Below are positions 22,062-23,190 of a stretch of DNA of 64,000 nt, one piece after another (the first letter of the stretch is position 1; each line of letters starts with the position of its first letter). The DNA is from Sneathiella chungangensis (GTDB lineage Bacteria; Pseudomonadota; Alphaproteobacteria; Sneathiellales; Sneathiellaceae), in the NCBI RefSeq assembly GCF_009882935.1, contig NZ_WTVA01000001.1, positions 758,238-822,237 of the forward strand. The letters are read 5' to 3'. The translations under genes were made by a program, and so were the position numbers. The notes beneath the pieces were generated by a model. The model was given only the letters and a program-made list of their open reading frames with translations. It did not search any database and was not told where the DNA came from.

Positions 22062-23060
22062 TTATTTGACGCGGAGATCCTCGGGCAGGAAGAACAGGCT
22101 GTCGGTGTCCTCCATCGCCATATGGCATTCATAACAGAAGACCATATTCTCTGAGCCCTTGCCGTTGGTCACCCCGGCGACCGTGCCGTTTGGCAGGATC
22201 ATGGTATATTTCCAGTCGCCGCTCGCCTCGTTGAAGCCGGAGCCCATTTTCTCCATCAGGAAAAGCGGACCGACGGAGGCCGCGCCGCTGGTCTCGACAA
22301 CGAAACTGTCTTTTGCAAGGATCGATCCGACCGGCATCTTGCCGACCTCCTCATATTTGCCATAGGCGTCCTTGGCCACATCATTGGCGTAGTTCATCAC
22401 ATGCCGCCCGCCATGGGTGGCGGAGGCATAGGGCGCGGTTGAGAAGGCTTTCCAGTCGAGATACTGCGCCGCCTCGGGCACACCGGAGCCGGCATAGGCC
22501 GTCTTCATATCCGCATTCAGGCACTCATAGGCGGCGGTGGCCTCAGCCGGTTCCAACTCGACATCAGAGATCGCGGCAGCAGCACCGCAGGGATTGCACG
22601 GGTTGCAGGGATTGCAGGGGTTACTGGCCGCGCAAGGATTTTTCTTTGCGGCGCAAGGGTTGCACGGGTTGCAGGCTTTCTTCGCGGCGCAGGGATTACA
22701 GGGGTTGCAGGCGTTGGCCGGCTTCTTCGCCGCACAAGGGTTGCAGGCCGCGGCTTTCTGCACGGACGGCACGACGCAGTCCGATGCGCTCGACTTTGCC
22801 GCCGCGCAGGGATTGCAGGGATTGCAGGGATTTTTCTTGGCGGCGCACGGGTTGCACGGGTTGCAGGGCTTCTTGGCCGCGCAGGGGTTACAGGCATTGG
22901 CGGGCTTCTTCGCCGCGCAAGGGTTGCAGGCCGCCGCCGCGGGCTTGACCGTCATCGCCGAGAGCGGAACGGCCACCGCCCCCACCAGCAGCAAGCCCCC
23001 CACGCCCATCAATGCCGGAAGGACTGTTGTGGACAGTAATTTATGTCGAGGTGCCGTCAT
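22062..23060 (-). CDS. Cytochrome P460-type protein with CNPC cysteine repeats
   Basis: A 332-residue exported protein. Residues 1-44 look like a signal peptide ending at an AAA stretch. Residues 45-158 are a repeat of CNPC, CNPCNPC and AAKK units with 24 cysteines in 114 residues. Residues about 195-332 resemble cytochrome P460: YLDWKAF, the [18 protein letters not shown] stretch, [13 protein letters not shown] and a heme c motif CYECH at 309-313. The start is backed by GGGAG upstream. The gene is convergent with phaC. The domain suggests a periplasmic heme protein; the repeat could bind metal or form disulfides, which is inference. Confidence 0.8.
22587..22928 (-). repeat. CNPC coding repeat with internal duplication
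   Basis: This in-frame repeat encodes the cysteine-rich segment of the cytochrome P460-type protein. Two blocks share the order [16 protein letters not shown] then [11 protein letters not shown] (protein residues 44-85 and 105-158), separated by a non-repetitive spacer [16 protein letters not shown]. The pattern points to duplication of a block followed by slippage of the CNP unit. Confidence 0.85.
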
Positions 23061-23190
23061 CAGAATTGTCTCCCACTGTTTTTAAAAACCGGGGACACTC
23101 TACAACGGCGGGACGCCTAATTAATCTCAACAGTCTTCACGTTCGGGTGAGAGAATTTGACCTGTCGTGACCTTTCCGTCGGGAAGGCCC

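Follow-up and report, generated by a model that had tools for sequence, protein, structure and literature searches.

The marine bacterium Sneathiella chungangensis encodes a protein in which a long cysteine-repeat array precedes a cytochrome P460-type haem domain. Throughout, the window denotes the whole stretch of DNA that was analysed, 64,000 nucleotides of the S. chungangensis genome. The Cys-repeat/haem design is widespread among related bacteria, and its repeats are found elsewhere on a second kind of c-type haem domain. Architecture and gene context lead us to infer that periplasmic thiols arrayed on the protein are coupled to its c-type haem. Sulfur or thiol redox chemistry is the likeliest purpose, with the uncharacterised family DUF6969 as a dedicated partner; we give this reading a probability of roughly 0.4.

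Architecture of the fusion protein

According to the ORF list, the gene has an ATG start and encodes 332 amino acids plus a stop codon. It comprises the following features:

22062..23060, minus strand: Cys-repeat/cytochrome P460 fusion gene (ORF, Pfam, Cys census)
23070..23074, minus strand: GGGAG, a probable ribosome-binding site 9 nt 5' of the ATG, judged from the upstream sequence
22929..23060, minus strand: residues 1-44, export-like segment with a basic start, a hydrophobic core and AAAA preceding the first Cys (sequence, by eye)
22797..22928, minus strand: residues 45-88, first Cys-repeat block (tandem-repeat analysis, Cys census)
22746..22796, minus strand: residues 89-105, linker, in which the CxVPxx motif is conserved and here reads CVVPSV (comparison of relatives)
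22587..22745, minus strand: residues 106-158, second Cys-repeat block (tandem repeats, census, selection analysis)
22092..22466, minus strand: residues 199-323, cytochrome P460 domain, PF16694 (Pfam, Foldseek, VIA-align)
22311..22313, minus strand: K250, aligned to the haem cross-link lysine, Lys78 in McP460 and Lys70 in NeP460 (counting on alignments)
22260..22262, minus strand: F267, predicted by counting to lie where NH2OH-oxidising P460s have their distal carboxylate (invariant in the 25-domain alignment)
22122..22136, minus strand: CYECH haem c attachment motif, C309, C312 and H313 (sequence census, alignment)

The protein contains 27 cysteines, 24 of which lie within the 114 residues from 45 to 158, and 14 CNPC motifs. 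The other three are C180, C309 and C312, the last two forming the CxxCH pair. Tandem-repeat analysis found the blocks 45-88 and 106-158 to be alike, flanking the Cys-containing CVVPSV linker. This matches the 24 cysteines in 114 residues and the duplicated block of an earlier note on this DNA. The signal peptide of that note corresponds to an N-terminus that is apparently export-like, as judged by eye, and its P460-like domain with CYECH was borne out by Pfam, Foldseek and VIA-align, with the motif at residues 309-313. Two ORFs run antisense to the repeat on the plus strand of the window (22313-22948, 211 aa; 22537-23085, 182 aa), and these are taken as by-products of the codon pattern of the repeat. 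A search of the window protein against NCBIfam gave no match, and the SoxA-TsdA domain PF21342 was absent from its Pfam matches (E up to 1).

The C-terminal domain matched the Pfam family Cytochrome_P460 with 35.7 bits (cut-off 27). With an AlphaFold model (pLDDT 87), Foldseek returned six chains at E ≤ 0.001, all of them cytochromes c'-beta or P460. With VIA-align 2, 996 chains were compared, and the first 17 rows were all P460 or c'-beta, the best match being McP460 (9hrk; Z 11.8, rmsd 3.0, 129 aligned). A profile of 25 P460 domains (21 fusions and 4 repeat-less paralogues) likewise matched PDB chains of the P460 and c'-beta types, most of them weakly (best E 3.9e-5).

CxxCH is invariant in the 25 aligned domains and in all 80 of the best 80 of 292 relatives. 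The lysine of the KDSF motif (alignment K97, window K250) is also invariant in 25/25, and it is present at 80/80 loci among the best 80 of 292 (48 by pattern, 32 by eye). Counted on printed alignments, it aligns to K78 of 6hiu and K96 of the 8gar chain. The known cross-link lysines are Lys78 in McP460 and Lys70 in NeP460, the latter numbered K96 by another group (PMC11928373). By residue counting, the place of the distal carboxylate (Glu96 in NeP460, Asp102 in McP460) is taken by an invariant Phe (alignment F114, window F267). The carboxylate required for NH2OH oxidation thus appears to be replaced by a conserved Phe, which suggests a domain other than a classical hydroxylamine oxidase. The term 'halfway house' has been used for cross-linked P460s whose pockets are non-polar, proteins of unresolved function (PMC11928373). 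The window protein hence shares the fold, CxxCH and the lysine at the cross-link position with the cytochrome P460/c'-beta superfamily (PF16694), and differs from it in its N-terminal Cys arrays, its CxVPRL-type linker and the predicted Phe. The available text of a 2025 review does not mention a Cys-repeat fusion for P460s (PMC11928373).

Conservation of the repeat and association with DUF6969

A contig scan yielded 292 relatives, and we retained and examined the best 80. Because these were picked by similarity to an alignment consisting mostly of fusions, they are a biased sample of P460s. Named hosts of these best 80 include Sneathiella, Aestuariispira, Ferruginivarius and Chelativorans, and most records are metagenome-assembled. 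The earlier note had proposed a homologue search for repeat number and neighbours. In this search the repeat was kept at all 80 loci (best 80 of 292), and thus was not lost in relatives: the best P460 ORF carries it N-terminally at 79/80, and at L108 it stands in a second P460 ORF. Nine of the ORFs at the 80 loci reach a contig end. The 70 complete repeat ORFs among the best 80 of 292 contain 14-85 cysteines (median 32). Repeat units differ among relatives of the window protein, and the CxVPxx linker motif is found in 67 of the 70 complete relatives. In the repeat-less relatives G150, G196 and G285 a motif resembling the linker persists (CRVERL or CRVARL, CTVPRI, CAVPRI), and therefore the linker is probably older than the repeats. 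At four loci, a repeat-less P460 paralogue adjoins the repeat fusion (L035:2667-3395, L037:9149-9856, L038:9324-9962, L039:10380-11090).

Purifying selection on the Cys repeat is strong, as a comparison of five Sneathiella species shows. Its dN/dS was 0.010-0.052 in the 7 of 10 species pairs where it was defined, the silent sites being saturated in the other three, and the P460 part of the same species had higher values (0.068-0.137). All five species share Cys at 20 repeat columns, with silent variation between TGC and TGT at 16 of them. An origin of the repeat by low-complexity drift or slippage was ruled out by the dN/dS values and this silent codon variation.

Of 289 genomes sampled across the class, 39 had a P460 match, 28 with and 11 without the Cys repeat. 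In a phylum-wide sample a P460 match was found in 12 of 397 genomes; 11 belong to the same class, and the twelfth match was marginal (E 5.1e-4). Transfer of the P460 domain on plasmids found no support, with no match in 72,556 plasmid records.

DUF6969 was present in 66 of the 289 genomes of the class-wide sample: in 25/28 with repeat-P460, in 2/11 with another P460 and in 39/250 without any P460 match. The two DUF6969 carriers among the 11, both scored as repeat-less, are G040, with a contig-truncated repeat, and G058, with a broken fragment. The resulting table of repeat-P460 against DUF6969 (25/3/41/220) gave a Fisher p of 2.9e-15, which ignores kinship among the genomes. A similar association was seen at 41 DUF6969 loci, most of them drawn from genomes without a P460 match, where exported Cys-rich ORFs called by a script filter occurred at 0.114/kb within 1.5 kb of DUF6969 versus 0.003/kb beyond (13 vs 1). 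Applied as a control to the 64-kb window itself, the same filter flagged only the present gene. Our own reading found a Cys-rich neighbour within 1.5 kb at 13/41 loci and none at 28/41. The script also arrived at 13/41, of which L141 was false (antisense of a cytochrome c gene), and the real case at L270 was dropped by the overlap rule. The filter was incomplete, as in the control loci it missed a short Cys protein at L151, and at L139 it flagged a real gene together with an antisense ORF. DUF6969 thus tracks the repeat and exported Cys-rich proteins generally, and not the P460 domain.

Phylum-wide, DUF6969 was found in 21/397 genomes (22 genes), and for 9/22 an exported, Cys-rich ORF lay no further than about 1.5 kb away. 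Repeat types near DUF6969 include CSPCGAAK, CCAAEGC, CGGS and CGAK. The family also occurs in 168 plasmid records. Among seven plasmid loci, a Cys-rich ORF was present in Skermanella, Ciceribacter and Burkholderia glumae and absent from two Azospirillum loci; in the S. medicae locus a weak PCAA protein was recognised by eye, and none was read out in the S. meliloti locus. On the B. glumae plasmid pBIN_2 (L294:3604-4696), a Cys-rich CAPKCAPKC protein and DUF6969 have a sigma-70 family factor, thioredoxin, CcdA and arsenosugar biosynthesis genes as neighbours. A DUF2336 gene adjoins DUF6969 in the window genome (L141:6926-8098) and in Azospirillum (L290, L296).

DUF6969 itself lacks an export signal, by eye; seven His are invariant in 28 aligned members, and the family has a conserved EHGHFH cluster. 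Neither Foldseek (E ≤ 0.001) nor VIA-align (Z ≥ 5) gave a match to its AlphaFold model (pLDDT 87); hence no function follows from the fold, nor does this make the fold new.

Gene neighbourhoods and a second haem fusion

The window neighbours of the fusion gene are phaC and a gene for a hexapeptide-repeat protein, both by Pfam, and a gene that we take to be argC. DUF6969, FGE-like, cytochrome c, cupredoxin-like, YeeE, rhodanese and short Cys-repeat genes are not adjacent to it in the window. The window genome has DUF6969 on another contig, beside a cytochrome c, and it also holds a cupredoxin-like gene located 5.5-6.2 kb from SCO1 and PCuAC genes. It has no close FGE-like gene, and its one Sulf_transp match over the cut-off is weak (35.9 bits). 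A short CNPC protein of 79 aa with 12 Cys is encoded elsewhere in the window genome (L139:8547-8783), adjoining a gene of the MerA/glutathione-reductase family (disulfide-reductase family) as well as genes for a VTT-domain protein and a sensor kinase.

At the best 80 of 292 loci, the most frequent partner is DUF6969 (39/80), followed by an FGE-family protein (36/80 by profile, 28 by clustering), a separate short Cys-repeat protein (23/80 by pattern) and a cytochrome c gene (18/80). Less frequent in these best 80 are a cupredoxin-like protein (12/80), YeeE (Sulf_transp; 11/80) and rhodanese (4/80, three of them weak). The FGE-family cluster (L095:6330-7202 and 27 others) has GGSWDDxGCGxCR in 27/28 members, and against NCBIfam the L095 protein gave sub-cut-off matches only, to EgtB, PvdO, SenA and others. 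Canonical FGE is a copper enzyme, and its specificity is the source of the idea that a related enzyme modifies C-x-P-x motifs. An FGE-like enzyme as obligate modifier of such motifs was set aside because the window genome has no match. The cupredoxin-like family (L140:8206-8745 in the window genome, and 12/80 loci) comprises small, exported-looking proteins with a C-terminal SCPLNxTPxY, weakly cupredoxin-like; no Pfam model scored over the cut-off, and the 12-member alignment has a single invariant His.

In four loci, a Cys repeat is fused to a different haem domain beside DUF6969:

L315, 5586-6323: SoxA/TsdA-type fusion
L316, 7267-8112: SoxA/TsdA-type fusion
L317, 7105-7923: SoxA/TsdA-type fusion
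L318, 5722-6387: SoxA/TsdA-type fusion

All four repeat-fused haem domains (scanned as L299, L301, L303 and L304) passed the SoxA-TsdA_cyt-c cut-off, and three of the four also passed that of CCP_MauG. The genomes concerned are G628, of the same class, and G374, G625 and G641, of the same phylum only. The Cys of a QxCxxxPM motif is invariant in 4/4 of these fusions, and its correspondence to the ligand Cys was not mappable on the alignments. Repeats lie on both sides of the haem domain in L315 and L316. SoxA-family enzymes join thiosulfate to thiols, with an S-thiosulfonate on the haem-ligand Cys that is thought to be passed to a carrier thiol (PMC4423706).

Sulf_transp, rhodanese and DUF6969 occur together in L119, L161, L292, L293, L295, L320, L321 and L327. 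The gene order in L320 and L321 is two Sulf_transp genes, a small NPCGPKK protein, DUF6969, rhodanese and an ArsR-family regulator (Pfam on L320), with the NPCGPKK protein of L321 on the antisense side; in L327 it is Sulf_transp, DUF6969 and rhodanese. In Chelativorans (L119), rhodanese and YeeE lie on one strand, and the P460 fusion and DUF6969 lie nearby on the opposite strand. The annotation of the S. medicae locus reads sulfurtransferase, YeeE, hypothetical protein (DUF6969) and sulfate-binding protein.

Possible function and alternatives

The preferred reading is that of a predicted periplasmic, haem-containing c-type protein in which the extended N-terminal array of CxPC thiol pairs would handle the substrate. 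This substrate would most likely be sulfur, carried or oxidised by the array as its thiols are converted to disulfides, persulfides or S-thiosulfonates. The P460/c'-beta haem would take electrons from the array and hand them to a soluble cytochrome c. DUF6969 would act before export, as a partner that protects, loads or modifies Cys-rich proteins. The redox role proposed in the earlier note is supported by context, namely by cytochrome c genes nearby and by the joining of such repeats to another type of c-haem at other loci. SoxA/TsdA cytochromes and their SoxYZ carrier offer a parallel, as c-type haems acting on protein thiols, with repeat fusions to such a domain in four DUF6969 loci. The window protein differs from that system in its P460 domain and in offering dozens of candidate thiols where the other has one carrier Cys.

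Several observations speak against the sulfur reading. No partner gene is adjacent in the window, and YeeE and rhodanese are found at only 11/80 and 4/80 of the best 80 of 292 loci. A Cys-rich neighbour is lacking at 28/41 DUF6969 loci, and 41 of the 66 DUF6969 genomes have no repeat-P460. The window genome itself lacks a close FGE-like gene, its sole Sulf_transp match is weak, and its DUF6969 is on another contig. Moreover, the SoxA/TsdA ligand Cys was not mapped on the alignments, and these domains also match CCP_MauG.

The main rival is a periplasmic buffer for copper or other soft metals, in which the CxPC array would act as a metallothionein-like sponge and the haem domain would reduce the metal or report on it. 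We consider this explanation the less probable of the two, and rather unlikely by itself. To the metal binding suggested in the earlier note, the cupredoxin-like and FGE-like neighbours give a weak fit. It would account for the Cys density and for the cupredoxin-like (12/80) and FGE-like (36/80) proteins at the best 80 of 292 loci, and it is consistent with the SCO1 and PCuAC genes near the cupredoxin-like gene of the window genome. However, the cupredoxin-like family has no Pfam model over the cut-off and one invariant His, and no metal exporter or regulator was recognised by eye among the neighbour clusters, which were partly scanned by family. Copper buffering also leaves the SoxA/TsdA-type fusions and the YeeE and rhodanese neighbours unexplained. 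Bacterial metallothioneins are Cys-rich as well, but the window protein differs from them in its Pro-containing CxPC arrays, export-like N-terminus and haem fusion. Bufferins, which are made by MNIO enzymes and chelate copper (PMC12452194), resemble the window family in that each couples an exported, Cys-rich protein to a partner gene of its own. Buf_EGKCG proteins have repeats as well (PMC12452194), and the terms 'CNPC', 'NPC' and 'P460' are absent from the main text of that paper. Unlike bufferins, the window family is fused to c-haem domains and the window genome has DUF6969 and no MNIO: 24 of 60 searched genomes have a PF05114 match, with zero in the window genome, so that bufferin/MNIO membership was rejected for this genome. 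A point in favour of copper is one DUF6969 locus with MNIO beside a CGAK protein. There (L322:2637-6158), the MNIO enzyme, more same-strand genes and the CGAK Cys-rich protein precede DUF6969, and this is the only locus tying DUF6969 to an MNIO cluster.

Two further explanations seem considerably less probable. The P460 domain might bind or turn over NO or hydroxylamine, with the thiols trapping NO or protecting the haem, in line with the P460/c'-beta fold, the lysine at the cross-link position and the proposal that c'-beta proteins are gas binders (PMC11928373). The earlier note had suggested nitrogen-oxide chemistry of this kind. Its hydroxylamine branch is weakened because the carboxylate position appears to hold a conserved Phe, and NO binding would be compatible with the domain. 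Yet no nitrogen-oxide gene was recognised by eye among the recurring neighbours, and DUF6969 follows the repeat rather than P460, with the repeat fused elsewhere to another haem type; hence we regard this explanation as improbable. More improbable still is a structural or adhesive, disulfide-linked low-complexity repeat, like the Cys-Gly-Pro repeats of sperm, with an incidental haem domain. The wide variation in repeat number would suit it, as would a short CNPC protein at L045 that weakly resembles Mst87F (16.1 bits, under the cut-off of 27), but it is at odds with the strong purifying selection, the conserved linker, the fusion to two kinds of c-haem domain and the DUF6969 linkage.

More speculatively, DUF6969 might be a cytosolic metalloenzyme or loading factor of a new class, dedicated to exported Cys-repeat proteins and analogous but unrelated to MNIO enzymes. 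The multi-thiol carriers that it prepares would then have been fused independently to P460-type and SoxA/TsdA-type c-haems, forming a new periplasmic sulfur/metal redox system across Pseudomonadota. We find this wider proposal rather doubtful at present.

Haem domains of this kind are known already; we found neither their joining to long exported Cys arrays nor the DUF6969 link in the open-access literature. No description of CNPC arrays with cytochrome P460, of a Cys-rich P460 or of DUF6969 came up there, and searches for the repeat strings gave apparently unrelated hits among the matches listed. Proteins with up to 85 Cys preceding the haem domain recur across Alphaproteobacteria (best 80 of 292), and Sneathiella and Chelativorans strains are among the hosts, which makes the system directly testable. 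If the coupling of thiols to haem is true, it would give the P460-fold proteins of these bacteria a role. It would also provide a first testable function for DUF6969 and add a carrier-type system to sulfur or metal handling. The design and its DUF6969 link point to a system for sulfur, redox or metal handling that has not been described before.
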